From: Bacteroides zoogleoformans
Lineage (GTDB): Bacteria; Bacteroidota; Bacteroidia; Bacteroidales; Bacteroidaceae
Length of the DNA: 64,000 nt
Direction: 5' to 3'
NCBI RefSeq assembly: GCF_002998435.1
Contig: NZ_CP027231.1
Span: forward strand, 718,501 to 782,500
Numbering within the stretch: position 1 is the stretch's first letter; each line of letters opens with the position of its first letter. Positions 2,269 to 39,925 of the stretch are shown piece after piece. A program made the translations under genes and the position numbers. The notes under the pieces were generated by a model. That model was not told where the DNA came from. It saw only the letters and a program-made list of their open reading frames with translations, and did no database searches.

Positions 2269-2271
2269 TTT

Positions 2272-2290
2272 ACTTTGAATTTAGTGGGTT
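2272..2290 (-). promoter_or_regulatory. RteR-complementary leader motif, traN
   Basis: On the coding strand this reads CCACTAAATTCAAAGTA, ending 3 nt before the traN ATG. All 17 bases can pair with the segment of RteR at 34,391-34,407, one of them as a G-U wobble. The location over the ribosome-binding region suggests a target for antisense control of translation. Confidence 0.6.
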
Positions 2291-5631: not shown

Positions 5632-6261
5632 CTACCAGTATCTTTCGTTCATGCTCCCGTACAGCCCCATGATGCGGTCAAGGTCGTTTTTCTTCTTCGC
5701 ACGCAGGTAGCTCACGCTGATATTCTTGTTGGTGTAGTAGCTCACGAGGTTGCGGTAACGCTTCATCTTGGAGTGGCAGCGTTCCACCACGTCCATGCGC
5801 TCCTTGTCCGTCATGGAGAGCGTGGTGATGTTCACCACGTTCTTCAACTCCGTAAGCACGTCATTGGATTCCTCCAGCAGCTTCGTGTACCCGAAGGCGA
5901 TGGCTCCGAGTTCCTCCACCGTGAAGTTGTCGTCGCGCAGCATCTTCTGGAAGCTGGTCACGTAGATGTCCGTGATGTCGCCTACCATCAGTATGGTCTG
6001 CTGCACCTTGCGGGCGTCCTTGACCAGATTGTTCACGGATTTGAGGGCGTCGTAATACTTCTTGCCCTGCTCGTAGATTTTCACCGTTTCCTGAAAGTTA
6101 TTCACCATGTTCGTGGCGGTCTTCGAGGTGTGGATGATGTTCTTCGAGGCATTGATGATGCCCTGCGCCAGATTGCCCGGATCGCTCACGACCCATTGGG
6201 CGGAAGCCCTGCCCGCGAGAAGCAGGCACAGGCAGATGACGAATGTTATTCTTGTTCTCAT
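5632..6261 (-). CDS. traI: Conjugative transposon protein TraI (DUF4141)
   Basis: A 209-residue exported protein. Residues 1-21 (MRTRITFVICLCLLLAGRASA) form a signal peptide with an Ala-x-Ala-like cleavage site before QWVV. The rest is mostly helical with heptad-like runs (KMLRDDNFTVEELGAIAFGY), consistent with the DUF4141/TraI family and with VirB5-like periplasmic proteins; the VirB5 link is an inference. It is three bases from traJ. A CCGCTAAAATCCAAAG motif lies directly before the start codon. Confidence 0.92.
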   Translation of the reverse strand: MRTRITFVICLCLLLAGRASAQWVVSDPGNLAQGIINASKNIIHTSKTATNMVNNFQETVKIYEQGKKYYDALKSVNNLVKDARKVQQTILMVGDITDIYVTSFQKMLRDDNFTVEELGAIAFGYTKLLEESNDVLTELKNVVNITTLSMTDKERMDVVERCHSKMKRYRNLVSYYTNKNISVSYLRAKKKNDLDRIMGLYGSMNERYW

Positions 6262-6265
6262 GTTT

Positions 6266-6281
6266 CTTTGGATTTTAGCGG
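6266..6281 (-). promoter_or_regulatory. RteR-complementary leader motif, traI
   Basis: The coding strand reads CCGCTAAAATCCAAAG, ending 4 nt before the traI ATG. It differs from the consensus by one A-to-G change that keeps a G-U pair with RteR and by one extra A that would be bulged. Confidence 0.5.
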
Positions 6282-9558: not shown

Positions 9559-9870
9559 TTAAAGGAAGAATGAGCGCAGGATGGTGGCGGCGACAATCAG
9601 GAAGATGCACGCCCCGAACCACGAGGCGGCAGTCTTGGATGTGTCGGGATCGCCGGACGAGAATTTCCCATACACTTTCACGCCCCCGATAAGCCCGACT
9701 ACCGCGCCGATGGCGTAGATGAGTTTCGTGCCGGGGTCGAAGTACGAACTCACCATAGAGGTGGCTTCGTTGATGCCCGCGATGCCGTTTCCCTGCGCGA
9801 AGGCGGAGGCGGTTGCGGCAACCAGAAGTGCCGCAGAGAGGATAAGTTTCTGTCTGTTGTTCTTGTTCAT
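9559..9870 (-). CDS. traE: Conjugative transposon protein TraE (DUF4134), pilin-like
   Basis: A 103-residue protein with a cleavable N-terminal signal (MNKNNRQKLILSAALLVAATASAFAQ) followed by two hydrophobic helices separated by a short polar loop (KVYGKFSSGDPDTSK). This layout is like VirB2/TrbC pilins, and DUF4134/TraE occupies that place in the operon. The start ATG at 9,870 is set by the signal peptide. It lies 10 bp upstream of traF. An unusually long leader of about 200 bp separates it from traD and carries one of the RteR-complementary motifs. Confidence 0.92.
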   Translation of the reverse strand: MNKNNRQKLILSAALLVAATASAFAQGNGIAGINEATSMVSSYFDPGTKLIYAIGAVVGLIGGVKVYGKFSSGDPDTSKTAASWFGACIFLIVAATILRSFFL

Positions 9871-10072
9871 AAACTGTTCTTGTTTTGTGCCGTCCAAAGG
9901 GTGGATGGTCCTTTGTCGGGCGGTTGATACTCGATTACTTTACTTTGGTTTAGTGGGTTGCCCGTTTGTTTCTACGGACTTGGGTGTGTCCGTTGCGAAT
10001 TGGCTGTACCTTGTACCGCCGTGCGCGTGGGTGATGCCGTCTTACGTTTTCATTCTCATTCTTTTTTAGTCG
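9871..10072 (-). other. traD-traE intergenic leader
   Basis: This 202-bp gap is the longest break inside the tra operon. On the coding strand it carries CCACTAAACCAAAGTA (9,942-9,957), which is complementary to RteR apart from one missing base, about 70 nt before the traE start. No clear gene or strong Bacteroides -7 box is visible. Its length and the motif make it a candidate point where the transcript is controlled internally. Confidence 0.5.
9942..9960 (-). promoter_or_regulatory. RteR-complementary leader motif, traE leader
   Basis: The coding strand has CCCACTAAACCAAAGTA. Relative to the consensus one T is missing, so pairing with RteR would leave a single bulged base. Unlike the other copies it is far (about 70 nt) from the start codon. 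Confidence 0.45.
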
Positions 10073-13072: not shown

Positions 13073-13088
13073 CCGCTAAATCCAAAGT
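13073..13088 (+). promoter_or_regulatory. RteR-complementary leader motif, mobA
   Basis: The sequence CCGCTAAATCCAAAGT ends 4 nt before the mobA ATG. All 16 bases can pair with RteR, one as a G-U wobble. It lies on the plus strand, unlike the tra copies, but again in sense orientation relative to its gene. Confidence 0.6.
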
Positions 13089-13092
13089 TTAT

Positions 13093-13518
13093 ATGAAAGA
13101 GAAAAGAAACAAGACCGGGAGAAATCCCAAACTTGATCCGGCGGTATTCCGCTACACCGTCCGTTTCAACGAGGAGGAACACAACCGTTTCCTCGCCATG
13201 TTCGAGAAGTCGGGCGTTTACGCCAAGTCGGTTTTCATCAAGGCGCACTTCTTCGGGCAGCCGTTCAGGGTGCTGAAAGTGGACAGGACGCTGGTGGATT
13301 ACTACACCAGACTGTCCGATTTCCATGCGCAGTTCCGCGCGGTAGGCACGAACTACAACCAAGTCGTGAAGGAACTCAGGCTGCATTTTTCCGAGAAAAA
13401 GGCAATGGCGTTGCTCTACAAGCTGGAGCAACAGACCGTCGAACTCGTGAAACTGAGCCGTCAGATTGTGGAACTTTCAAGGGAAATGGAGGCGAAATGG
13501 TCGCAAAAATCAGTGTAG
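13093..13518 (+). CDS. mobA: Mobilization accessory protein MobA
   Basis: A 141-residue basic protein that begins MKEKRNKTGRNPKLDPAVFRYTVRFNEEEHNRF, the pattern of MobC/MbeC-type relaxosome accessory proteins with a ribbon-helix-helix region. The conserved YNQVVKEL segment and a C-terminal coiled coil (residues about 105-135) follow. It probably binds oriT and helps the relaxase. The ATG at 13,093 is chosen because of the family N-terminus and the leader motif just upstream; the frame is open to 12,958. It overlaps mobB by 22 bp. Confidence 0.88.
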   Translation: MKEKRNKTGRNPKLDPAVFRYTVRFNEEEHNRFLAMFEKSGVYAKSVFIKAHFFGQPFRVLKVDRTLVDYYTRLSDFHAQFRAVGTNYNQVVKELRLHFSEKKAMALLYKLEQQTVELVKLSRQIVELSREMEAKWSQKSV

Positions 13519-18828: not shown

Positions 18829-19446
18829 TTATTTTCTCAAACGTTCCATTTCCTCGTCGCGGAGCATCTTCTCGTTCAGTTTCTCCTGCATCCTGTCAAG
18901 GAAGTAGGTGCGGCTTTCGTTCTTCCGTCGTTTGATGTCGATATAGAAGCGGTAGCAGTCCTTTGATTCGACACCGAAAATCTTGTAGAGGAGCGGGGCG
19001 AGCTGTTTGAGCGGCATGTTGCCGTTATTGATGCAGCCCATCTCGTTGATGCCGTAGATAAGTTCCACGAGGTCGATGGCGTTGCCCGTCCATTGCAGGG
19101 GTGAGGCGGGATTTTCGGTTGTGTTGTCGGAGGATGTACGGATGGGGATTAGTGGTGACACTTGGGGAGCGGCAAGGAACTTCTGCATCTTCCTAACGAA
19201 AGAGAGTGCCTTGCTGATGTAGGCTGCAACCTCCCTCTTTTCTTCGGGAAGATTGCGCACGGGATGGTGCTGCAACTCGATTTCAATGTAAGCCAGCGCG
19301 ATGATGGTGCGGGTGGTGTCCACATTGCCGTTGCATAGTTCGATCACTTGCGTGGCGAAAGCCGTGTATGCCGTTTCCATATTGCAGTCCCCGGCTTCGT
19401 TTATACGGCGGAAGAACTCTGTTTCCGTCAATAAGAAATAATTCAT
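18829..19446 (-). CDS. rteC: Excision-operon activator RteC
   Basis: A 205-residue protein of the RteC family, which in CTnDOT binds upstream of xis2c and switches on the excision operon. The N-terminal half is helical (ALAYIEIELQHHPVRNLPEEKREVAAYISKAL in parts), and the C-terminal half (TGNAIDLVELIYGINEMGCINNG...MPLKQLAPLLYKIFGVESKD) has the winged-helix pattern described for RteC. It is slightly shorter than the roughly 217-residue CTnDOT protein. Upstream are a terminator and a possible sigma-54-like promoter (19,508-19,522), fitting activation by RteB. Confidence 0.9.
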   Translation of the reverse strand: MNYFLLTETEFFRRINEAGDCNMETAYTAFATQVIELCNGNVDTTRTIIALAYIEIELQHHPVRNLPEEKREVAAYISKALSFVRKMQKFLAAPQVSPLIPIRTSSDNTTENPASPLQWTGNAIDLVELIYGINEMGCINNGNMPLKQLAPLLYKIFGVESKDCYRFYIDIKRRKNESRTYFLDRMQEKLNEKMLRDEEMERLRK

Positions 19447-19507
19447 GTCCTGTCAATTTTGAAATTTTACACTCTGTTTTTTCGGTATGCGCACATGAAT
19501 ATGATTG

Positions 19508-19522
19508 GCAAAAAGCGTGTCC
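19508..19522 (-). promoter_or_regulatory. Candidate sigma-54-type promoter for rteC
   Basis: The minus strand reads GGACACGCTTTTTGC, against the consensus TGGCACGnnnnTTGC: CACG and TTGC are intact, with two mismatches at the -24 end. Start would fall near 19,497, about 50 nt before rteC. RteB is an NtrC-type activator, which would need such a promoter. Confidence 0.35.
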
Positions 19523-19532
19523 ATAAAATAAA

Positions 19533-19566
19533 AAATCCGGCACGCTCTCTGCAAGGTGCTGGATTT
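19533..19566 (-). terminator. Terminator downstream of the reductase-like gene
   Basis: Minus-strand arms AAATCCAGCAC and GTGCCGGATTT form an 11-bp stem with one mismatch, followed by TTTTTTATTTT. It separates the reductase-like gene from rteC, so rteC needs its own promoter. Confidence 0.75.
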
Positions 19567-19657
19567 CAGAGTGATAATTTCGCGATTTATTTATCTGAAA
19601 GGAATTGTATTCAGCTTAAAGTGTTCATTTACTGAACATTCGTCCATTTTATGGACA

Positions 19658-20071
19658 TCAAACGCACGCTTTATAGATATGGCGGACCACTCCGTTGCGG
19701 TACACCTTCTGTGAGGTCAGCGTCCATTGTTCCTGCGGCAAGGCGGATTGGAAGAAACGCTTTCCCGTTCCGGCAATGAAAGGAATCGTGTAAAGTATGA
19801 TTTCATCCACCACACGCATACGCAGCAGCCCGTTGATGTAGTCCGCTTTTTCAGGAGTGACTTCCGCCAGATAGCAGATGTCTGTTGTGGATTTCCGCCA
19901 TTCGTCAAGCATGGAGATGGAATAATCCGGTGTGATATGATAAAGGGCGTTTTCCCTTATCTCATTGATGCCGCAATCTTCAAGGCGCAGTTCCTTATAC
20001 GCTTTGCAATATAACTCGGAGCTTTGACAACCGTCTATCGTGAGGACGGCAAGAATCTGTACTTTACCCAT
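19658..20071 (-). CDS. RibD/dihydrofolate reductase-like protein
   Basis: A 137-residue protein resembling the DHFR/RibD C-terminal reductase fold: a first strand VQILAVLTIDGCQSS, a central helix-strand unit (STTDICYLAEVTPEKADYINGLLR) and the closing VVDEIILYTIPFIAGTGKRFF, which matches the typical DEI.L...PV..G.G..LF pattern. It is shorter than full RibD-like reductases (about 175-200 residues), so the nucleotide-binding part is reduced. Substrate is unknown. Such genes are common beside rteABC in CTnDOT-like elements. A long structured RNA region with a terminator lies directly upstream. Confidence 0.8.
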   Translation of the reverse strand: MGKVQILAVLTIDGCQSSELYCKAYKELRLEDCGINEIRENALYHITPDYSISMLDEWRKSTTDICYLAEVTPEKADYINGLLRMRVVDEIILYTIPFIAGTGKRFFQSALPQEQWTLTSQKVYRNGVVRHIYKACV

Positions 20072-20097
20072 TATCGTTTCCTTTCGTTGGGCAAGGG

Positions 20098-20316
20098 CAA
20101 AAAAGTAGCGTGCAAATCACACTACTTTCAAGCGACGGCTCTGGTAAAGCCTTTTACGGAGAGTACGTGAATGCACGCTATGCGTAGGCATAGCATAAGC
20201 ATCACGCAATCGTCTCCGTAGTGTCAATTTACCAGATTTTCGCTCGAAACGCCTTGCGGTCTTATGTTATATATAGGCGGCAAAAGGCTCTGCCAGTCGC
20301 CGTTACCTTCTAATAT
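20098..20316 (-). ncRNA. Candidate structured RNA or attenuator upstream of the reductase-like gene
   Basis: A Bacteroides -7 box (TATCTTTG on the minus strand, 20,323-20,330) precedes about 220 nt of strongly folded sequence. Nested helices are CTGGTAAA/TTTACCAG (20,141-20,148 with 20,228-20,235), TACGGAGA/TCTCCGTA (20,155-20,162 with 20,213-20,220), CGTGA/TCACG and an apical GCTATGC-GTAG-GCATAGC (20,177-20,194). It ends in a 10-bp stem with six T residues (20,099-20,127), an intrinsic terminator 28 bp before the gene at 20,071. It may be a free RNA, a conditional attenuator, or simply the end of the rteB transcript. No known family is recognised. Confidence 0.55.
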
Positions 20317-20352
20317 GTCATGCAAAGATAGCCATTTTCAGCGAATTGCGGG

Positions 20353-21675
20353 CTATGGTTGCTCAAATTTATACTTCAATCCATATTCTTCCAGTTTATT
20401 ATAGAGTGTTGTCCTGCCTATTCCAAGCAATTCGGCAGCAACCTTCCGGTTCCCGCCAGCCTGCTTCAAAGCACGTATAATCCGCTCTTTATCTTCCTCT
20501 TCGTTGCGTAGGGAGAAGCCGACAACAGAGGTTGTTTCGGTTATTCCAAGTTCCAGATGCTCTTTCGTGACAAGTCCCGTCTGAGCCTGCAACACCGCAC
20601 CCATGATTTTCTGCCGAAGTTCGCGCACGTTACCCGGCCATGAATGGATCAGTAACACTTTCCGCGCTTCGGAACTGAAGCCACTAACATTGCATTCCAA
20701 TTCCTTATTGGCAATCTCACGGAAGAACTCCGCCAGCGGCATGATGTCCTCCTGACAGTCACGTAAGGGCAGAACGGTTATCTCGAAGTCATGTAGGCGG
20801 TATAACAAATCCTGTCGGAAACGCTTTTCATTGACCGCCTTTTCCAGATCCTCGTTGGTGGCGGCGATGATGCGGACGTTGAAACTGCGGTCGGACTTGT
20901 CGCCAACGGGACGGAACCGCCGTTCCTGTATGGCACGGAGTAACATCTGTTGGGTTTCCGGTGCGAGATTACCCACTTCATCCAAAAACAATGTGCCGCC
21001 TTCCGCCTCGTGGAAATAGCCTTTCTTTGTGTTTTCAGCACCAGTGAACGCTCCTTTAACGTGTCCGAAGAACGCCGATGGCGCAAGTTCTTTGGTGAGT
21101 GAGCCGCAGTCCACCGCCACGAAAGGCTTGCCTGAACGCTTGCTTTTATCGTGCAGTAGATGGGCAATATGCTCTTTGCCAGTACCGTTCTCCCCGAATA
21201 TCAGTACGCTCATGTCGGTAGGAGCTACCAGCCTTATCCGGTGCATGATTTTCTGAAAGGCTGAACCGTCACGGGCAAATACGGGCATGCGGCTTCGCCC
21301 GATATTCCGCTCTTTCAGTATGGTGCGGAGCAAAGGCACGAGTTTGTCCTCCACGAGTTGCTTGGGTATGTAGTCCAGCGAACCGAGTTTCATGCTTTCA
21401 ACCGCCGTATGTACTTCGGCATAGTCGGTCATGATGATGAACGGCTGCGTCATGCCTTCTTTGCGCATCCAGCGCAATAGGTCGATGCCGTCACCGTCAG
21501 GCAAACGCAAATCAGAAACTACTATATCATTGTCAGCGGCTTGTTGCAGAAGTTTCTTCGCTGTCGAGAGGTGGAAAGCCTGCACGGTACGGAATTTCTC
21601 CCGTGCCAGCAGGTTGCAGACAAACTCGCAATATACGATGTTGTCCTCCACCACGATGATTTTTGTTTTATCCAT
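20353..21675 (-). CDS. rteB: Response regulator RteB, NtrC-type
   Basis: A 440-residue activator of the RteA-RteB two-component pair. The receiver domain (1-120) has the phospho-acceptor Asp55 (IVVSDLRLPD). The AAA+ domain (about 130-370) has Walker A GENGTGKE (161-168), the sigma-54 contact loop GAFTGA (208-213) and Walker B GTLFLDEVGNL. A Fis-type helix-turn-helix closes the protein (GGNRKVAAELLGIGRTTLYNKLEEYG). In CTnDOT RteB activates rteC. The start overlaps the end of rteA by 8 bp, so the two are co-translated from the tetQ transcript. Confidence 0.96.
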   Translation of the reverse strand: MDKTKIIVVEDNIVYCEFVCNLLAREKFRTVQAFHLSTAKKLLQQAADNDIVVSDLRLPDGDGIDLLRWMRKEGMTQPFIIMTDYAEVHTAVESMKLGSLDYIPKQLVEDKLVPLLRTILKERNIGRSRMPVFARDGSAFQKIMHRIRLVAPTDMSVLIFGENGTGKEHIAHLLHDKSKRSGKPFVAVDCGSLTKELAPSAFFGHVKGAFTGAENTKKGYFHEAEGGTLFLDEVGNLAPETQQMLLRAIQERRFRPVGDKSDRSFNVRIIAATNEDLEKAVNEKRFRQDLLYRLHDFEITVLPLRDCQEDIMPLAEFFREIANKELECNVSGFSSEARKVLLIHSWPGNVRELRQKIMGAVLQAQTGLVTKEHLELGITETTSVVGFSLRNEEEDKERIIRALKQAGGNRKVAAELLGIGRTTLYNKLEEYGLKYKFEQP

Positions 21676-23986
21676 TTTCGTATTTTCTCCTTTCTTCTTT
21701 TGCCAGCCGGATTATCTCCGAACCCTTATCCAATACGGCAGTCACGGCGTTGTTCAATGCTTCATAATCGGGAACGGCACTCCCATGAAGCTGTTTATAA
21801 AGTTCCCTTAATGGTTGGTCGGCACGCAGTATCTCCCACGAACTACGTAGGTGGTGTGTCAGGGCGTCCAGTTCTTGAAAGTCTTTCCGTTGTTCCCCAT
21901 CCCTGACCGACTGCATTTCCTTTTCGGTTTCCGCTATCAGTTTATCCAACATGACGGATTCATTGCCGTAAGACAGTAGGGAGGAGAAATCAGGCTTTTC
22001 ATTTTGTTTACCTTTCATGGCGCACTTGTCGGAAACTTCCATCAGCTCCGATATGGAAAACGGCTTGAGAAGGCAATCAGAAAATCCACGTTCTAAAAGT
22101 TCCTCTCTGTTGCAACTGCCCGAAGCGGTTGTTACAATAATCGGAATGATCCTTGAATTGCCCACATTGGAGGTGCGTAGCAGTTCCAACAGCTCGAAGC
22201 CGTTTATATCCGGCATATTCAAATCGGTCAGAAGCAGACTGTATTCTTTCCGGCGTATCATTTCCATCAGTTCCGCCGCATTGGTACAGGTATCGCAATG
22301 TATCCCTTCTTGTGCATACATTTCTTTCAGCATTAGGAGAAGTACCTTGTCATTGTCGATGGCAACAATATCATGGAGTGTTCGGTTATGATGAATCTGT
22401 GTTTTATTTATCCGTTCCGGCAATTCCTCGGCTGACTGCATGGGTATCTCCACCGTGAAACGGCTGCCCTTGCCTTTCTCGCTCTTCAGCTGGATTGTGC
22501 CGCCGAGCATTGTCACAATGCGCTGAACAATGGAAAGACCTAATCCGAAGCCGTCCTTTGCGGCAGCGTTTGACAAACGTTCAAACGCACCGAACACACG
22601 TTGCTGTTCCTCTTCGGTCATACCCGAACCCGTATCTTTGACGATAAGTTTCAGCATACCGTTATCATACCCCATTGTCAGAGAAACGGCACCGTTCTCA
22701 GTGAACTTGATGGCGTTTGACAGCAGGTTATTTCCAATTTGTAGAATGCGTTCCTTATCGGTCAGTACAACAGCATCCGTGTGATTCGTCACAGTAAGAG
22801 CAAGTCCCTTGTTTATGGCAATTGGCATAAACTCTGATTCGAGCGTATGCGCTATTGATGAAATCCTACACGTGGAGAAATTAGGTTGTTCCTTGCCGTC
22901 GTCCAGCCGGAAGAAACTCAGAAGAGTATTAAGCATTTCACGCATACGGTCGGAGGATTGCTGAATATTTCGGATATACATCCCGGTTTTATCCGCATTG
23001 AAGTTTTTTTGTATCAGTCCGGCATAGCCCGTTATTGCAGTCAGCGGTGTGCGTAATTCATGGGTAATGGTATGTACGGCTTTCTTGCGGGAGGTTATCA
23101 GTGCCTCGTTTCGCTTTGCCATTTGTTGCAGTCGCTCGATTAAATCTGCGGTTTCCTGTTTATATCGCTTGATGCGGTTGGCATTTCGGTGTATGATGAT
23201 ATATGATATGACCAGTAGCAGTATAACGAACCCTGTCAAGCCCCCAATCTGAATGAACGACCGTTCCCGCATGGCTGTTATCTCGGCTTCCCGCTTTTGT
23301 AGGTCAGTTTGTACTTTCCCGTCTATTTGAACAACCAGTCCTTGCAGTTGCCTGTTAAGTTCCGCATTTCGTGCGGCAAGGCTATCGGCATGAACCGATA
23401 AGCGGCGGCTTTGCGCCTGTTGTTCGGTTCTCATATTCCGGTTAAAGGAACGGTGCATCGTGGTAGTCACAGTTGGTTTCGCTTCTTCCTTTTTGCCGAA
23501 GATGCCCAAGAAACCTTTGCGCTTGGACTTCTTGGGCTGTTCCTGCACACTCTTCTGCACGATTACAGGTACTTGACTGGTTATCTTATCGTTGATGGCT
23601 TGTTGTTGTTCAAGTATTTGAACGATTTGGCACATCTGCCGTTCCTTATCTTCGAGAAGATGGCGTACGCTGTCTATACGCTCTGCCGGATAGGTAGCTT
23701 TGAAACGGCAGAGCATACTATCCATTGCCATACGCTGTGCATGGTAATGTTCGATATCTTTATCGTTCCATTCCAGTATTGTTTCACCAAATAGAGAAAA
23801 TTTTATCATTTGAATATTGATATTGTTTATCTCTTTTCGGAACTCGTCTATTTTTTTATTGTCAAGTTCTAATGCTTCTATCTCCTGCCATTCATAGAAG
23901 CTATTATATGCTATACATCCGATAAGAACGGAGATAAGTATATACCCCAACCGTATTGTCTTATAGAAATTCCTGGATCGTTCCAT
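21668..23986 (-). CDS. rteA: Hybrid sensor histidine kinase RteA
   Basis: A 772-residue membrane sensor. Membrane helices lie at about 13-31 and 246-265, flanking a periplasmic, coiled-coil-prone sensing region. The kinase core has His309 (HTITHELRTPLTA), the N box NNLLSNAIKF and G boxes DTGSGM and GFGLGLSI. A receiver domain follows with Asp588 (LLLTDLNMPD), and the C-terminus looks like a phosphotransfer domain with His711 (LTHHLRSSWEIL). A phosphorelay His-Asp-His to RteB Asp55 is thus encoded. The ATG shares one base with the tetQ stop (TAATG). The signal sensed is not known. Confidence 0.96.
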   Translation of the reverse strand: MERSRNFYKTIRLGYILISVLIGCIAYNSFYEWQEIEALELDNKKIDEFRKEINNINIQMIKFSLFGETILEWNDKDIEHYHAQRMAMDSMLCRFKATYPAERIDSVRHLLEDKERQMCQIVQILEQQQAINDKITSQVPVIVQKSVQEQPKKSKRKGFLGIFGKKEEAKPTVTTTMHRSFNRNMRTEQQAQSRRLSVHADSLAARNAELNRQLQGLVVQIDGKVQTDLQKREAEITAMRERSFIQIGGLTGFVILLLVISYIIIHRNANRIKRYKQETADLIERLQQMAKRNEALITSRKKAVHTITHELRTPLTAITGYAGLIQKNFNADKTGMYIRNIQQSSDRMREMLNTLLSFFRLDDGKEQPNFSTCRISSIAHTLESEFMPIAINKGLALTVTNHTDAVVLTDKERILQIGNNLLSNAIKFTENGAVSLTMGYDNGMLKLIVKDTGSGMTEEEQQRVFGAFERLSNAAAKDGFGLGLSIVQRIVTMLGGTIQLKSEKGKGSRFTVEIPMQSAEELPERINKTQIHHNRTLHDIVAIDNDKVLLLMLKEMYAQEGIHCDTCTNAAELMEMIRRKEYSLLLTDLNMPDINGFELLELLRTSNVGNSRIIPIIVTTASGSCNREELLERGFSDCLLKPFSISELMEVSDKCAMKGKQNEKPDFSSLLSYGNESVMLDKLIAETEKEMQSVRDGEQRKDFQELDALTHHLRSSWEILRADQPLRELYKQLHGSAVPDYEALNNAVTAVLDKGSEIIRLAKEERRKYENG

Positions 23987-25911
23987 TATTTTGATGATAC
24001 TGATTTTTCAAACATGAATAAAAGTTTATCCTTTTCTTCCATACGGGTATTATCAGAATAACCGCCTTTTGTTATTTGATACCCACACGGCTTAACCATA
24101 AAAGTGCCTAAGCCTTTAGTGTATGAACTTACTTCTGAAGCATAGTCTTTACTTGTATTTAATGGAACTTTCCCTTCAATAAGACACCACTCTTTATTAC
24201 AACTGATACCTTTAATCTCAGACATCATTTTTTGCAGATCTGTAATAGCTTTGGAACTTGCTACTTGTGGTATCTGTAACTCAAAATAGAGCATCGGTTC
24301 GAGAATATCCACTCCTGATTGTTGCAAAGCCAACCTGAAGACATAAGGAGACAATTGTCTAAAATCGGCAGGGGTACTTATCGGACTATAATAAAGGGCA
24401 TAAGTAAAGGTTACTTTCAAATCCGTCACTTCCCATCCATGCAATCCCGATTGGCAAGACATACGGATTCCTTCAAAAACGGCATTTTGAAAAGAATGGT
24501 TCAGATAACCAAAGGAGATTTCACTTTCGATTTGCACCCCTGACCCTATCGGTAAAGGTTCCAGAGTCAGTCCTATTGAGGCCCAGTAAGGGTTGGGAGG
24601 GACTTCGATATGGATAATCTTATTCACCTTCTTTTTAGGTCGTTCTTTGTAGATAGTCTTGATTTCATCAAAATGGGTCTTTACGGAGAATCGTTCTTCC
24701 AGCAATGTTTGTATGATTTCTTTTTGGGTTAAACCATATAACGAGATTTCCAATTCATCACTATATGAATTTATGGAAAAGGACAGAGACGGGTCTTCAA
24801 TAAACAATACATTTAGAGCGGATATCAACTTGCTTCTCTCTTCGGGCTTGTCTGGTCGGACAGAAGATTTGAGGGCGGGATGCTGATGAGATAATCCTTG
24901 AATCAGACAAGGTTTAACACCTAAATAATCTCCGATTCTTAATTCTTCTATATCTTCTATAATTGCGATATCATTAGCAACCACTTCATCAACATTTATC
25001 TCTTTGCCCTGATAAATGGTTTTTAGATTTTTAATCTTGATGAATTTTTCCGAATCATTGACTTTTATAACGGTTCGAAGTCTCAGACTTCCGTCAATAA
25101 TTTTTAGAAAACTTCTTTTATGCCCTTTGGGGTCATGTTCTATTTTATAAAGATAAGCTGAAAGTCTATTTGGGACTGATGCCGGAGGAAATATAAAAGA
25201 AATGATGGCGTCTAACAACTCATTGATGCCAATATTGCACATTGCTGATCCATGCAAGACCGGATAGGCTTTGGCTTTTGCCACAAGAGCGATTATCGCA
25301 TTCCAATAATCTGCCGGTAAGATTTCTTTATCCGCCAAATATAGTTCTAATATATCGTCGTCATGGTTGCATACAAATTCTTTGTGTTCTGCCCTTATAT
25401 CTGTTGAGGTGCAAATCGGGTAAACTACTCCATCGACAACCGTTTGCATAAACAAGACGTCTTGCGACAGATTTGTTTTTATGTCCAGATATAAACGCTC
25501 AAGATTTACGCCGGCACGATCAATCTTATTGATAAATATAATTGTCGGGATTTGCAGTTTTTGCAAAGTCTTGAACAGCAACTTTGTTTGTGCTTGTATG
25601 CCTTCCTTTGCCGATAATATGAGGACTGCTCCATCAAGCATTTTGAATGTCCGCTCCACCTCTGCAATAAAATCCATGTGTCCCGGAGTGTCAATGATAT
25701 TGCATTTCACACCATTCCAAACAATAGATGTCGTAGAAGCCCGAATAGTAATTCCTCTACGTTTTTCTATATCCATAGAGTCTGTTATGGTGTCACCTTT
25801 ATCAACACTGCCGCGCTTTTCCGTTGCTCCGCAGGCAAATAGCAGATTTTCGGTTACGGAAGTTTTTCCTGCATCAATGTGAGCAAGAATTCCTAAATTT
25901 ATAATGTTCAT
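23986..25911 (-). CDS. tetQ: Tetracycline resistance ribosomal protection protein Tet(Q)
   Basis: A 641-residue translational GTPase related to EF-G that removes tetracycline from the ribosome. GTPase motifs are clear: AHIDAGKTS (G1), GITI (G3 approach), DTPGHMDF (G3) and INKIDR (G4). The C-terminal domains carry the family runs [21 protein letters not shown] and [13 protein letters not shown] sequence. The start at 25,911 ([17 protein letters not shown]) gives the common 641-residue form; a TTG four codons upstream is also in frame. It heads the tetQ-rteA-rteB operon. It is AT-rich compared with the rest of the element, a sign of separate origin. Confidence 0.98.
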
Positions 25912-25959
25912 TTGATTAAGCAATAATATACTACAATAGATGCATTGCCGAAACGCACC

Positions 25960-33862: not shown

Positions 33863-34304
33863 ATTCCCCGATATAAAGGACGGCGGCTCCCGTCAGCTCC
33901 GTGTAGAGCAGGTCGTATTCGGGCGACAGGGCGAAATTGTCGTCCGAAAGGTCATAGGCGGAGAATACGTTGCCGACCGGCGGCAGCAACTTTCGGATGA
34001 AGGCTTCGCGTTTCTTTCCCGGCACTTCGTCGGCAAACTCGTTTTCCACGACTTCGCGGAGGATGGCGTACTTGGAATAGCGAAGCCCCCGCAGGAGCGT
34101 GTCCATCGCCAACTCCTGCGCCCCTTCGGGCGGATAGCCTTCGAGCCGCGCACGCTCATACGTTTCGGCGGCACGGTCGGCACGCTCCCGGATGAAGGCA
34201 TCGTCGGAAGCCTGTTCAAACCTGTTCGTGCGGAGGTAGTCCAGCAGGTACAGACCGTAATAGGAAAAGTCGGTCTGACCCTCGTTTTTCTTCTTGTTGT
34301 TCAT
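33852..34304 (-). CDS. DUF1896 family protein
   Basis: A 150-residue protein of the DUF1896 family found in CTnDOT-like elements just before the large helicase. The conserved [38 protein letters not shown] is followed by a Tyr/Asp-rich end. No catalytic motif is evident. The ATG at 34,304 immediately follows an RteR-complementary motif. It overlaps the helicase start by 11 bp, so the two are translated together. The frame is open to 34,370 upstream but the terminator-rich leader there makes a longer protein unlikely. Confidence 0.85.
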
Positions 34305-34305
34305 T

Positions 34306-34322
34306 ACTTTGGAATTTAGTGG
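34306..34322 (-). promoter_or_regulatory. RteR-complementary leader motif, DUF1896-helicase operon
   Basis: The coding strand reads CCACTAAATTCCAAAGT, one base before the ATG at 34,304. It matches the RteR complement except for one extra T. Because it lies about 70-100 nt downstream of the RteR segment on the same strand, a read-through transcript could also fold it in cis. Confidence 0.6.
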
Positions 34323-34354: not shown

Positions 34355-34450
34355 GAGAAAGAAAAGGCACTCGGTATCCCTCCGAGTGCCACCACTAAAT
34401 CCAAAGTATGAGTGTAATCCGGTATCGAAGAACAATTCATTACTCTGAAC
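34355..34450 (-). ncRNA. rteR: Small RNA RteR
   Basis: In CTnDOT an RNA of about 90 nt, RteR, encoded just downstream of exc, represses tra expression. Here the same place holds a -7 box TACCTTTG (34,457-34,464, minus strand), then about 90 nt ending in a perfect 9-bp GC-rich stem (34,366-34,390) and a U-rich tract. Upstream of the stem the RNA contains TACTTTGGATTTAGTGG (34,407-34,391), complementary to motifs before at least seven genes of the element. The 5' and 3' ends are estimates. Confidence 0.78.
34366..34390 (-). terminator. Terminator of rteR (and of topB/exc)
   Basis: Arms GGCACTCGG and CCGAGTGCC pair perfectly around a 7-nt loop. On the minus strand TTTTCTTTCTCCTTTT follows. It would end RteR and any read-through from topB. 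Confidence 0.85.
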
Positions 34451-34456
34451 AAGTGG

Positions 34457-34464
34457 CAAAGGTA
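34457..34464 (-). promoter_or_regulatory. -7 box of the rteR promoter
   Basis: TACCTTTG on the minus strand fits TAnnTTTG. A weak -33-like TTTCG lies 19 bp upstream. It starts transcription about 90 nt before the terminator. Confidence 0.65.
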
Positions 34465-34542: not shown

Positions 34543-36633
34543 CTATTTCTTCCGTCCTGAAAATTTCCTGCTCGTGTTCCTTTCGGGGAACACGAAAGTC
34601 GTGTTATAGTCCCCGTCAAAGGCGACTATGGCGTCGAAGCTCTTGCCCTGCTTGCTCTTGAAGCCTTTGAGCAGCTTCGTATGCCCGTCGGTGAGCAGGT
34701 CTTTGATCTCGTCATCGGAAAGGGTGCGGTTCGCTTTCAGGCGGAACACGGGCAGCCCGCACTCCGCGTTGTCGCAGCGTACCACCTTGCCGTAGAACTG
34801 CATGCTGCCCGTCCCGCACTTGGGACACTTGCAGCCGGAATCCCTGCGGGCGAACAGTTTGTCGCACGAGAGCAGTTCGGAGGTGATTTCGCGTGTGTAC
34901 GCCTCTATCTCCCTGCGGAAGGTTTCGGCGGGCATTTCCCCGCGCTCGATGCGTGCCAGATTCTTCTCCCATTCGCCCGTCATGGTTACGTCGGCGATGC
35001 GCATCGTCTTCACGACCGAATAGAGGGCAAGCCCTTTTTCAGTCGGCACAAGCGATTTCTTGCAGCGTTCCATGTAGCCGCGCTTGAAGAGCGTTTCGAT
35101 AATCGCCGCACGGGTGGCGGGCGTGCCGATGCCGCAGTCCTTCAACGCCTGACGGAGTGCATCGTCCTCTATGTCCTTGCCCGCCGTTTCCATTGCCGAC
35201 AACAGTGTCGCTTCTGTATGCAGCGGCTTGGGTTTGGTCTTTCCCTCCGTGATGGAGCAGCCTTTCAGCGTCAGCGTGTCGCCTTCCCGCCAATCGGGGA
35301 TGGAGGTTTCTTCCTTGTCCTCCACGCTATAGACGGCACGCCATCCGGCTTGCCTGATGACGCTGCCTTTCACCGTGAACTCCACTCCGGCACACTCCGC
35401 CGTGACGGTGGCGGTGTCCTTGACGCATTTTTCGGAGAAAGCCTCGATCATGCGTCCGGCAACCATCTGATAGACGGTGCTGTCCTCTTTGGAGAGGAAT
35501 AGTGGCTTCTCGCCCGTGACGAGCAGGGCGTGGTGGTCCGTCACCTTGCCGCCGTCCACGCTTCTGCGTGTCGGGACGCATTTCGGCTGCACCTTGCCTT
35601 TCCATTCGGGCAAAGCCCCGATGAAGGCGAGCAGCTTGGGGATTTCGGCGAACACGTCTTCGGGTATGTAGCGGCTTCCGGTTCGCGGATAGGTGATGAG
35701 CTTCTTCTCGTAAAGCTTCTGCGCGATTTCAAGCGTCTGTTCCGCCGTGAAGCCGTGCTTGGCGTTGGCTTCCTTCTGGAGCGTCGTCAGGTCGTACAGC
35801 AGCGGTGTTTCCTCCGTCTTCTCCTTGCGTTCGGCTTTCGTGACGGTGGCTGTGCCTGCCGACTTCACCTTATTATATAGTTCCGTCGCAGGCTCTTTCT
35901 CTTTCCACTTTTCGGAAGAGGAAAACTTCACCGTTCCTTCATCGCAGCCGTCCGTTGCGATATGGAGCTGCCAGAAGGCTTCGGGCGTGAAGCGGCGGTT
36001 CTCCCAATAGCGTGCGCACACCATCGCCAACGTGGGTGTCTGCACCCGCCCGATGGAGTACGTGCCGTGTCCGGCGGCGATGGAGAGTGCCTGCGTGCCG
36101 TTGATGCCCACGAGCCAGTCTGATTCGCTCCGCGCTTTGGCGGCAAGATAGAGGTTGTCGTATTTGCCGCCCGCTTCGAGGTTGCGCAGTCCCTCGCGGA
36201 TAGCCTTGTCGGTAAGCGAGCTTATCCAGAGGCGGACGAACGGGGTGGTGCATCCGGTATAATGGTAGAGGTAGCGGAAGATAAGCTCACCCTCGCGCCC
36301 TGCATCGGTCGCCACGATGATCTGTTCGCTTTCCTTGAATAGCCGGGCAACGGTCTTGATCTGCGCCACCACGCCGCTGTCGGGCTTGTAGCCCTTCTCC
36401 GTCTTTACCTGACGGGGGACGAGCGTGAAGGTGTCGGGAATGACGGGCAGATTGTCACGGACGAAACCGCGTATGCCGTAGCCGTCGGGCATGGCAAGCT
36501 GCACAAGGTGTCCGAACGCCCAAGTCACGGCGTAGCCGCCTCCCTCGAAATATCCTTCCTCTCTCTTTGTCGCGCCCACGATACGGGCGATCTCACGTGC
36601 CACAGACGGCTTTTCTGCAATGATTGTCTTCAT
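34543..36633 (-). CDS. topB: DNA topoisomerase III (Exc)
   Basis: A 696-residue type IA topoisomerase, the Exc protein of the CTnDOT excision operon. The TOPRIM domain begins at once (MKTIIAEKPSVAREIA) and has the acidic ATDAGREGELIFRY motif. The active-site Tyr lies in KKLITYPRTGSRYIP (about residue 317). A C-terminal zinc-ribbon-like CKCPKCGTGSMQFYGKVVRCDNAEC follows. In CTnDOT the topoisomerase activity is dispensable for excision in some assays although the gene belongs to the operon. It lies 59 bp after orf3, with an RteR-complementary motif in the gap. Confidence 0.95.
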   Translation of the reverse strand: MKTIIAEKPSVAREIARIVGATKREEGYFEGGGYAVTWAFGHLVQLAMPDGYGIRGFVRDNLPVIPDTFTLVPRQVKTEKGYKPDSGVVAQIKTVARLFKESEQIIVATDAGREGELIFRYLYHYTGCTTPFVRLWISSLTDKAIREGLRNLEAGGKYDNLYLAAKARSESDWLVGINGTQALSIAAGHGTYSIGRVQTPTLAMVCARYWENRRFTPEAFWQLHIATDGCDEGTVKFSSSEKWKEKEPATELYNKVKSAGTATVTKAERKEKTEETPLLYDLTTLQKEANAKHGFTAEQTLEIAQKLYEKKLITYPRTGSRYIPEDVFAEIPKLLAFIGALPEWKGKVQPKCVPTRRSVDGGKVTDHHALLVTGEKPLFLSKEDSTVYQMVAGRMIEAFSEKCVKDTATVTAECAGVEFTVKGSVIRQAGWRAVYSVEDKEETSIPDWREGDTLTLKGCSITEGKTKPKPLHTEATLLSAMETAGKDIEDDALRQALKDCGIGTPATRAAIIETLFKRGYMERCKKSLVPTEKGLALYSVVKTMRIADVTMTGEWEKNLARIERGEMPAETFRREIEAYTREITSELLSCDKLFARRDSGCKCPKCGTGSMQFYGKVVRCDNAECGLPVFRLKANRTLSDDEIKDLLTDGHTKLLKGFKSKQGKSFDAIVAFDGDYNTTFVFPERNTSRKFSGRKK

Positions 36634-36664: not shown

Positions 36665-36681
36665 TACTTCGGATTTAGTGG
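36665..36681 (-). promoter_or_regulatory. RteR-complementary leader motif, topB/exc
   Basis: The coding strand reads CCACTAAATCCGAAGTA, 31 nt before the topB start. All 17 bases can pair with RteR, with a single G-U wobble. It is the best match together with that of traN, and rteR lies just downstream of this gene. Confidence 0.6.
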
Positions 36682-36692
36682 CGGACACGGGA

Positions 36693-38270
36693 TTACATCT
36701 TCATGCCCTTGTTGTTTCTTTTCTGCTGCTGTTGCTGTGCGGTGTCCTTCGGGGCGGTCTGTCCCTTCCGCAACGGCTCTTTCAGGTTCTTGGTAGCCTC
36801 GTTGGTCTTGCCCTCGCTGTTCACCGCCACCTGCGTGCGGCTCTCGTTGGAAGGGGCGACCTTCTGCGCGTTGTCGGGGTTGGTGTCGTAGCGGTACGGG
36901 CGTCCCTTCTCCGGGTTGAACTTGATGTACATCGTGGCGTGGAAGCCCTGCTTGTCGGTCACGTTCTCTAATTTCACGGCTTTGCCAGCCACGTAGTCGG
37001 CTTTCTGCTGTTCGGTGAAGTCCACGCCGCTCCATTTGCTGATGGGGCGGATGCTGCCGTCGGCGTTCGTCCACGTGTTGCGGCGTTGCTCCTTGTTCGT
37101 GCCTCCGGCATTCTCCGTACCCTGCGCCTGTCCCTGTGCGGGGGTGTTCTTCGTTTCCTGCGTCCGGGCGGTACGGGGCGACCTGCCGGTTCCCGGCACG
37201 AACTCCACGCCGCGCTGCTCCACGTTCACTTGCAGGGTGGTGACGAACTTCCTGCCGTCCTTGCGCTCGATGAGCTTGTCGCGCACGGGCAGCCCGGCAC
37301 GCAGCATGTCCTGCTCCTGCTTGGTGATTTCCGTCTTGCCGATGCGTTCCGGTATGCGCACCTTGTTCGTCGGGACATCCGTGATTTCGTTCGTCTTGCG
37401 GTCAATACTGACGAACGAGGGGATGATCTCGCCCGTTTCCCTGTCCACGAGGTCCACGACCCTGCCGAGGTTGCCTGTTTCGCGCAGGTTCTTCCGGTCG
37501 TCGTCGGAGAACTTGTGTTCCTTGTACTCGTCGAGCTTCTGCTCCTTGCGGATGAAGTGCGGCACAAGGCTGACATTGCCCTCGCCGTCCTTCTTGAAGG
37601 AGAGGCGGGCGTCCAGCTCGAAAGCCTCTCCGCCGAAATTGGGCGACACCCTCACCAAGTCGGACTTGCCGTAGTTGAGCATTCTGTTAAGGTCGCCCGA
37701 CTTTTCAAGGTCGTCGCGCTTCACGCCCCATTTCTCCTCCAACTCCTGCCAGTTGATCTTGCTCTCGTCGATGGGCTGGTAGCCCCGGTTGCCCTGCGTC
37801 TGCTGCGGGCTTTCCTGATTCTGTTCGTTTTTCTGTTCCATCTCTTCCTGTTTTTTAGGTTCGTCATCTTGTTTCTGTTCCGGTTGTTCCTGCTTTTCGG
37901 CGGACTGCTCCTCCTGTACTTTCTTTTCGTAGCCGGAGGTGTCCACCTTGTGGGGCGCAAGCAGTTCCTTGTTGCCGTCGGGGTCTTTCAGCAAGTCCTT
38001 GATAACCTCCAGCAGCTTGTCGGCTTGGTCCGCCGCGACACGGTAGAAACCGAAGCGGCTGGGTTCCTTGCACTGCCGGAAGAAGTTCTTGAAGAAGTTG
38101 TCCAGCACGTCGCCGTGCCGGTCGAATTGCAGGAAACTCTGCGCGTTCTCCGCTTTCGCGGGGATGCGCTTGGGGGAGCCGTCGGCGTTCAGCCCGGCTA
38201 CCACGCTGATTTCGCCCGTCTTCTCGTCACGGACAACCAGCACGTCCTTTTCGTCTTTTTTCTTTGCCAT
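36693..38270 (-). CDS. DUF3945/DUF4099 protein (orf3 of the excision operon)
   Basis: A 525-residue protein that matches Orf3 of the CTnDOT excision operon in place and domain make-up. The N-terminal part (about 1-115, KDVLVVRDEKTGEISVV...) is followed by a strongly low-complexity Gln/Glu/Lys segment (about 120-165) and then DUF4099- and DUF3945-type repeats, with GINWQELEEKWGV-like and DLVDRETGEIIPSFVSIDRKTNE motifs. The tail is Asn/Gln-rich. Molecular function is unknown; in CTnDOT orf3 is not essential for excision. It follows xis2d by 19 bp. Confidence 0.88.
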   Translation of the reverse strand: MAKKKDEKDVLVVRDEKTGEISVVAGLNADGSPKRIPAKAENAQSFLQFDRHGDVLDNFFKNFFRQCKEPSRFGFYRVAADQADKLLEVIKDLLKDPDGNKELLAPHKVDTSGYEKKVQEEQSAEKQEQPEQKQDDEPKKQEEMEQKNEQNQESPQQTQGNRGYQPIDESKINWQELEEKWGVKRDDLEKSGDLNRMLNYGKSDLVRVSPNFGGEAFELDARLSFKKDGEGNVSLVPHFIRKEQKLDEYKEHKFSDDDRKNLRETGNLGRVVDLVDRETGEIIPSFVSIDRKTNEITDVPTNKVRIPERIGKTEITKQEQDMLRAGLPVRDKLIERKDGRKFVTTLQVNVEQRGVEFVPGTGRSPRTARTQETKNTPAQGQAQGTENAGGTNKEQRRNTWTNADGSIRPISKWSGVDFTEQQKADYVAGKAVKLENVTDKQGFHATMYIKFNPEKGRPYRYDTNPDNAQKVAPSNESRTQVAVNSEGKTNEATKNLKEPLRKGQTAPKDTAQQQQQKRNNKGMKM

Positions 38271-39601: not shown

Positions 39602-39616
39602 CCCACTGAATCCGAA
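39602..39616 (+). promoter_or_regulatory. RteR-complementary leader motif, HTH gene at 39,617
   Basis: CCACTGAATCCGAA ends directly at the first of three consecutive ATG codons. Fourteen bases can pair with RteR, two of them as G-U wobbles. It is the most diverged of the seven copies. Confidence 0.45.
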
Positions 39617-39925
39617 ATGATGATGAACGAGAACAATGAAGTGTTTACAATGGAGGACGAGCCGCTTGCCTCCGTCGTGCAGAACATGCGCAAAGGCTCG
39701 AAATGGCTCTCCGCCTTTCTGGAAAGTTACCGCCCGCCGTTGGACGGGGAACGTTACCTGACGGACAGGGAGGTGGCGGAACTGCTCCGTGTCAGCCGCC
39801 GCACCTTGCAGGAGTACCGCAACAACAGGGTGCTGCCCTTTATCCTTTTGGGAGGGAAGGTGCTTTACCCCGAATCGGGGTTGCGTGAGCTGCTGGAGGC
39901 GAACTACCGCAAGCCGATGGAATAA
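39617..39925 (+). CDS. Small helix-turn-helix protein (excisionase-like)
   Basis: A 102-residue protein with an acidic start and the HTH run YLTDREVAELLRVSRRTLQEYRNNRVLPFILLGGKVLYPESGLREL, again of the excisionase/HTH_17 type and related to the preceding gene. Three consecutive ATG codons at 39,617-39,625 all give nearly the same protein. An RteR-complementary motif abuts the first. It ends 16 bp before a strong two-way terminator. Confidence 0.85.
   Translation: MMMNENNEVFTMEDEPLASVVQNMRKGSKWLSAFLESYRPPLDGERYLTDREVAELLRVSRRTLQEYRNNRVLPFILLGGKVLYPESGLRELLEANYRKPME

Follow-up and report, generated by a model that had tools for sequence, protein, structure and literature searches.

The small RNA RteR of the element CTnDOT was reportedly described by Jeters in 2009 and by Waters and Salyers in 2012. 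The available portions of the literature describe an RNA of about 90 nt that causes discoordinate tra expression and was, in 2020, one of only two small RNAs known in Bacteroides (PMC7366714), with inhibition of transfer as its reported role (PMC7366714, PMC9299015); the CTnDOT-type family includes tetracycline-resistance elements (PMC5729914). The present analysis concerns an RteR encoded by a mobile element in a 64,000-nt stretch of Bacteroides zoogleoformans DNA (hereafter the window; all coordinates are positions in it). This RNA carries a segment complementary to a short word at seven genes of the same element, and it is very probably a trans-acting, multi-target antisense repressor of the element that uses element-specific codes. 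No description of leader targets of RteR was found in the open-access literature searched, which was drawn on through the available portions of PMC7366714, PMC10994844, PMC9299015, PMC5729914, PMC5418344 and PMC12121999 and does not include the original RteR papers.

Like the CTnDOT RteR and the corresponding Rfam family RF04181, the window RNA is element-encoded, about 90 nt long and has a terminator at its end. RyhB and GcvB are multi-target trans-acting small RNAs (sRNAs) of Proteobacteria, in which one segment likewise pairs with the initiation regions of many mRNAs. Unlike theirs, the putative targets of RteR are one mobile element's own genes with a nearly identical leader word, and RteR and these leaders change jointly, which would yield element-specific codes. 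RteR is not known to have an Hfq partner. FinP is encoded opposite a single target, traJ; RteR, by contrast, is not encoded opposite its targets, lies apart from most of them and matches several. FinP, from F-like plasmids, is likewise a hairpin antisense RNA that restrains conjugation, according to the available portion of PMC9299015.

The segment (17-22 nt) lies on the 3' side of a long predicted hairpin and is complementary to a word located before or over the starts of transfer, mobilization and DNA-processing genes. An earlier reading of the window from its letters alone (the sequence-only reading) had proposed a 17-nt segment of this kind and a matching motif before at least seven genes. 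The segment is real and lies one base away from where it had been placed, and all seven motif copies are present, in sense orientation relative to their genes, with coordinates shifted by about a base (Table 1). Where five copies had been said to end within 0-4 nt of a start codon, five end 0-3 nt 5' of it or overlap it; the gap is 31 nt for topB and 70 nt for traE. The one-base irregularities proposed for traI, traE and DUF1896 were all recovered. Several sites (traI, traE) are situated inside operons, and the seven lie on both strands at 0.07 to 32 kb from the segment, the nearest being on the same strand, downstream. What had been called topB/exc is a single type IA topoisomerase gene (34543-36633), which we take to be the Exc of CTnDOT.

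Table 1. Features of the RteR gene and putative RteR target sites in the window.
Feature	Coordinates	Strand	Remarks
RteR small RNA	34361..34455	-	predicted transcript of ~95 nt; 5' end uncertain by a few nt
RteR antisense segment, TACTTTGGATTTAGTGG	34392..34408	-	reverse complement of window 34392-34408
RteR intrinsic terminator hairpin	34366..34390	-	directly 3' of the antisense segment
Promoter-like TACCTTTG box, upstream of RteR	34457..34464	-	presumed Bacteroides -7 type
traN target site	2271..2287	-	ATG at 2268; -25.9 kcal/mol
traI target site	6264..6281	-	ATG at 6261; one extra base (one-base bulge); -22.1 kcal/mol
traE target site	9941..9956	-	ATG at 9870; one base shorter; -21.0 kcal/mol
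mobA target site (MobC_2 family protein)	13073..13089	+	ATG at 13093; -24.9 kcal/mol
DUF1896-helicase operon target site	34305..34322	-	ATG at 34304; one extra base; -23.6 kcal/mol
topB (topoisomerase gene) target site	36665..36681	-	ATG at 36633; -25.2 kcal/mol
HTH_17 gene target site, overlapping gene start	39603..39619	+	ATG at 39617; -21.9 kcal/mol

Past the RteR site and ahead of the traE start is a stretch (9880-9935, minus strand) that resembles a hairpin, with a loop close to GGACYATCCACC in most of the traE leaders listed, other elements included. A similar stretch precedes traN in element G032:C3.

When both strands of the window were scanned for duplexes with the segment, the seven sites came out as the top seven non-self matches (-25.9 to -21.0 kcal/mol), followed by a match at -19.9 kcal/mol and the RteR 5' arm at -18.9. 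At -17.5 or better, the real seed had 11 matches and eight shuffled seeds had 10 to 101, the best at -25.8. Duplex energy and number of matches are by themselves ordinary; what is unusual is the location of the matches. Without gaps and with up to 3 mismatches, the motif occurs 4 times in the window (RteR counted), against a shuffle mean of 0.12. The same kind of search across the genome, which is blind to the traI, traE and DUF1896 sites because of their extra or missing base, gave 4 copies at up to 2 mismatches, all within the element (RteR counted), and 5 further copies at 3 mismatches, all outside it; a reversed control pattern matched 7 times in all.

Base composition confounded a scan in which every terminator was scored by raw energy against every leader, and RteR came first or tied for first in only 3 of 21 stretches. 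For this reason, cognate and non-cognate RteRs were compared on orthologous genes instead. Orthologs of 18 window genes were located by tblastn, so that leaders were not picked by their match, and the duplex energy of each leader (75 nt before and 12 nt after the estimated start) was computed against all classes of RteR. In the discovery set of 14 RNAs and 10 segment classes, 44 of the 64 leaders of five core target genes paired better with the RteR of their own element than with any of the other nine classes (6.4 expected), with traE at 10/13, traN at 11/13, mobA at 7/13, DUF1896 at 8/12 and topB at 8/13. The control genes traG, traJ, traK, traM, mobB, mobC and helicase gave the chance value, 9/90, and four other genes gave 7/38. 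The counts were 4/13 for traI and 3/9 for the helix-turn-helix (HTH) gene, two genes that were split from the core targets after the discovery result was known; all seven claimed genes together give 51/86. Five of the RNAs had first been noticed through leader matches, R8, R9 and R10 in an exact 10-mer scan that also returned many chance matches and R5 and R11 in the all-terminator raw-energy scan, and their share of the discovery result is partly circular. Without these five, the targets stand at 30/42 and the controls at 9/57; without the window RteR as well, at 26/37 and 9/50.

The energies themselves follow the same pattern. For the five targets the mean duplex energy was -19.3, against -12.7 under label permutation, and none of 20000 permutations was as good; the same permutation of the control genes gave p 0.36. 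Leader counts are not independent, and permutations shifted whole classes because the elements are related and mobile. Near matches of the segment complement (up to 3 edits) numbered 42 in sense leaders and 2 elsewhere, one of the latter being the 5' arm of an RteR, whereas six shuffled-seed sets given the same count had 0-4 in sense leaders and 0-6 elsewhere; the leader definition covers 23-32% of random positions in two sampled stretches. In genome G576, the RteR seen at the DUF1896 locus was taken as the cognate RNA of the tra contig. The DUF4099/DUF3945 gene (36693-38270) has sites for R5, R9, R12 and R13 only.

A held-out set was assembled with a covariance model (R1) built from 11 RteRs, without consulting leaders. 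The search gave a match in 62 of 399 genomes of the family; among the 51 matches below 77 bits, 41 (at 40 loci) were examined, 3 were already in the discovery set and 7 were left aside. Of the resulting 19 seed strings, 15 were kept as new classes and 4 were dropped as repeats of discovery classes. Leaders were taken by orthology, with extra regions added. Among 41 target leaders, 17 paired best with their own RteR, where 2.7 would be expected (permutation p 5e-5); among 42 control leaders, 3 did so (p 0.18). The count for the HTH gene was 3/14 (p 0.022), and no signal was seen in this set for traI (0/5), HTH38640 (0/14) or the DUF4099 gene (1/14); the seven claimed genes together gave 20/60. 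An earlier, finer ranking of all 19 strings was weaker (topB 3/16, DUF1896 5/12, HTH 3/13, helicase 1/12). The sequence-only reading had named a lack of covariation between RteR and motif as fatal to its proposal; covariation was strong in both sets, with controls near chance. Its wider claim, a single RNA acting on tra, mob, excision and helicase genes, draws support from this covariation for the core targets; traI is clearly matched only in the window type, and the HTH gene only in a minority of types.

Individual base changes provide further evidence. The RteR of locus L258 reads TTAAGTGG and is matched by CCACTTAATCC in both the DUF1896 and the HTH leaders. Corresponding changes pair GGATTCAGTGG with CCACTGAATCC in the topB leader of L285, GGATTTTAGCGG with CCGCTAAAATCC in the topB leader of L274, and GATCTTTTAGTGG with CCACTAAAAGATC in the traE leader of L262, whose topB leader retains the form CCACTAAAAAATC. 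The core segment of class 10 differs from that of class 9 by a single base, A to T, and the class 10 traE leader is changed to match. From R6 to R7 a run of six U becomes seven, and the run of A lengthens likewise before traE, traN, topB and mobA, but not before DUF1896; genome G518, whose RteR also has seven U, has seven A before traE, traN and topB. Complementarity to the putative target mRNAs is kept through compensatory change, as in trans-acting base-pairing sRNAs. Site changes favour G-U wobbles, as the sequence-only reading had proposed: of 44 substitutions at A/C positions of the complement, 33 preserve a G-U pair, compared with 17 of 40 opposite transitions at G/U positions (Fisher p 0.004), in a list of sites compiled by hand whose rows are not independent.

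In genomes with several elements, each RteR usually fits the leaders of its own element best. G658 has four elements with four RteR classes, and for 17 of 19 target leaders the element's own RteR outranked the other three. With three RteRs in G595, the own one came first in 15 of 15, some by small margins. The two-element genomes G139 and G032 gave 7/9 and 4/6.

Several results weigh against antisense repression by RteR. Six of the 44 best ranks in the discovery set, all from R12 and R13, are weak (-9.1 to -12.5 kcal/mol, the other 38 being at -16.8 or below). The traN leader is weak for R5, R11, R12 and R13, the mobA leader for R9-R11 and the topB leader for R9 and R10, and none of the tested DUF1896, topB, mobA and traE leaders of R3 and R4 ranks its own seed first. 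The traI leader fits class 1, the window's own type, only, and never ranked first in the held-out set. The mobA leader of G518 has six A opposite the seven U of its RteR. No site was found in the topB leaders of L251, L253 and L258, and no good match at the genes located in L264 and L266. Elements G592:C18 and G454:C16 carry the motif in leaders (traN only among the leaders listed for G454:C16), and no RteR was found in either. Finally, most of the antisense segment is paired within RteR itself in predicted folds.

Pairing of RteR with the leaders is nonetheless strongly supported by these comparisons, because it is the sole reading found that explains the antisense orientation of the segment, the sense sites at gene starts, the near-chance controls and the joint change. 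In the cell, RteR and the leader RNAs would pair, and pairing would mask the initiation region and block ribosomes; we infer this block of translation from the positions of the sites and from the reported discoordinate tra expression. In the window type, CUCAU of RteR could additionally pair with AUGAG at start codons. Pairing may also lower or destabilize the mRNA piece by piece. The 5' arm of RteR, which in most classes resembles a target leader and is predicted to pair with the antisense segment (exceptions L256, L258 and L264), would act as a weaker target mimic, keeping the segment folded in a hairpin that opens when a leader of better match takes the place of the arm. The segment of the window type pairs more strongly with each of the five leaders tested (-21.0 to -25.9 kcal/mol) than with the 5' arm (-18.7); in some other classes the 5' arm is the stronger partner.

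The same pairing could be put to a different use, with RteR working mainly through premature transcription termination or activation. Discoordinate tra expression fits termination within an operon, and the topB and traE sites lie well upstream of their starts; termination inside the operon is a live alternative. Since five of the seven sites touch the start region and the net effect reported in the available portions of the sources is inhibition of transfer, we consider this mode unlikely to be the principal one.

It is highly improbable that the leader is instead a translation or RNA-protein signal for which the RteR 5' arm serves as a decoy, the antisense arm merely holding the hairpin. RteR does begin with a CCAC-U-A-like start, and the own segment is the best partner of the 5' arm in 13 of 24 classes. 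However, sites spread over 0 to 70 nt from start codons are unsuited to one fixed translation signal, and the window-type antisense arm prefers the tested leaders to its own 5' arm. The decoy role suggested by the sequence-only reading is weakened because the segment carries the motif's complement rather than the motif itself, and site substitutions favour G-U pairs; what survives of it is the sense-like copy in the 5' arm, for which a decoy role is possible. Least credible is a site for a DNA-binding protein of the element, inverted in the RteR gene by chance: the eightfold occurrence of a similar DNA word within one element would suit it, and a protein and its site could coevolve, but 42 of 44 near matches are sense-oriented at starts, several sites lie within operons, substitutions favour G-U pairs, and the copy in the RteR RNAs examined is antisense, in a predicted hairpin adjoining the terminator.

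Returning to antisense repression by RteR, we tentatively extend it, with somewhat less than even confidence, to a scheme of private RNA address codes. Segment and leaders would coevolve as lock and key, diversified so that co-resident elements are not cross-controlled, and two elements that share a code would shut each other down, much as incompatible plasmids do. RteR itself may derive from an inverted duplication of a target leader, of which the 5' arm would be the trace. If RteR acts as proposed, one RNA coordinates pilus, mating-channel, mobilization, topoisomerase and helicase genes across a family of elements, with a target set that is predicted base by base and easily testable. The distinct codes of multi-element genomes would form a natural set of orthogonal regulators and offer a new view of how co-resident elements avoid mutual interference.

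The RteR gene, encoded on the minus strand, has topB on one side and the DUF1896-helicase operon on the other; it ends in a terminator hairpin, and a promoter-like box precedes it. The TACCTTTG sequence of this box resembles the Bacteroides -7 type, and a similar box occurs upstream of most RteR-like RNAs examined. Positions 34358-34452 fold far better than shuffled sequence (z -4.5), and single-sequence folds give a two-hairpin shape, a long predicted 5' hairpin plus the terminator hairpin. This agrees with the shape of RF04181, where a 5' hairpin leads into a 3' terminator hairpin whose loop is GGAGGGAUAC-like, although several 5'-hairpin pairs become non-standard when the window RNA is aligned to that family. 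Run on the RteR alignment, RNAalifold recovered the terminator stem alone, owing to the poor alignment of the 5' hairpin between classes. The window RNA scores 40.5 bits against RF04181 (rteR), below the gathering score of 72, and its closest tested relatives score the same, whereas class 9 and class 10 relatives score 93.5 and 94.3 bits. RF04181 as built therefore covers one sub-type. Against the family model R1, which was built including it, the window RNA scores 91.5 bits.

Its position supports the assignment. Among the 41 RNAs examined from the covariance search, 38 lie 17-676 nt 3' of a topB match in the same orientation, the exceptions being one RNA in each of L261, L265 and L266. R12 and R13, from the discovery set, are convergent with topB. 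The window RNA shares both the homologous sequence and the place just 3' of the topoisomerase gene, and it is named RteR here from homology and position. Partial RteR matches at L014-L018 look like ordinary promoter similarity or chance. At L264 (G784:C1:22754), ATGGATTTAGTGG stands just 5' of the modelled RteR-like RNA, and the DUF1896 leader fits this upstream copy better than the terminator-adjacent segment.

More distant elements within the window's taxonomic order carry RteR-like RNAs with differing segments, including CTATTGAATTTTTTAGTGG, AACATTGATTTTTTAGTGG, ATAATTGAAATTTTAGTGG, ATAATTGAAATTTTTGTGG, AACTTTGAGAAATTAGTGGA and ATAGCTTGGATAATTAGCTA. Closer loci are little informative, because RteR and leader are nearly unchanged in them: the best 80 of 168 confirmed loci from a DUF1896 protein scan belong mostly to Bacteroides, Prevotella and relatives. 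Loci L095, L114 and L110, in assemblies labelled as a Lachnospiraceae metagenome-assembled genome (MAG), a Clostridia MAG and Riemerella, share an identical RteR-DUF1896 leader with 48 other loci, which may reflect recent transfer or mis-binning.

Between the mob and helicase genes, the window (18829-25923) encodes RteC, a sigma-54-type response regulator, a hybrid histidine kinase and an EF-G-like protein, which we take to be tetQ-like. The order of these genes presumably matches that of CTnDOT.
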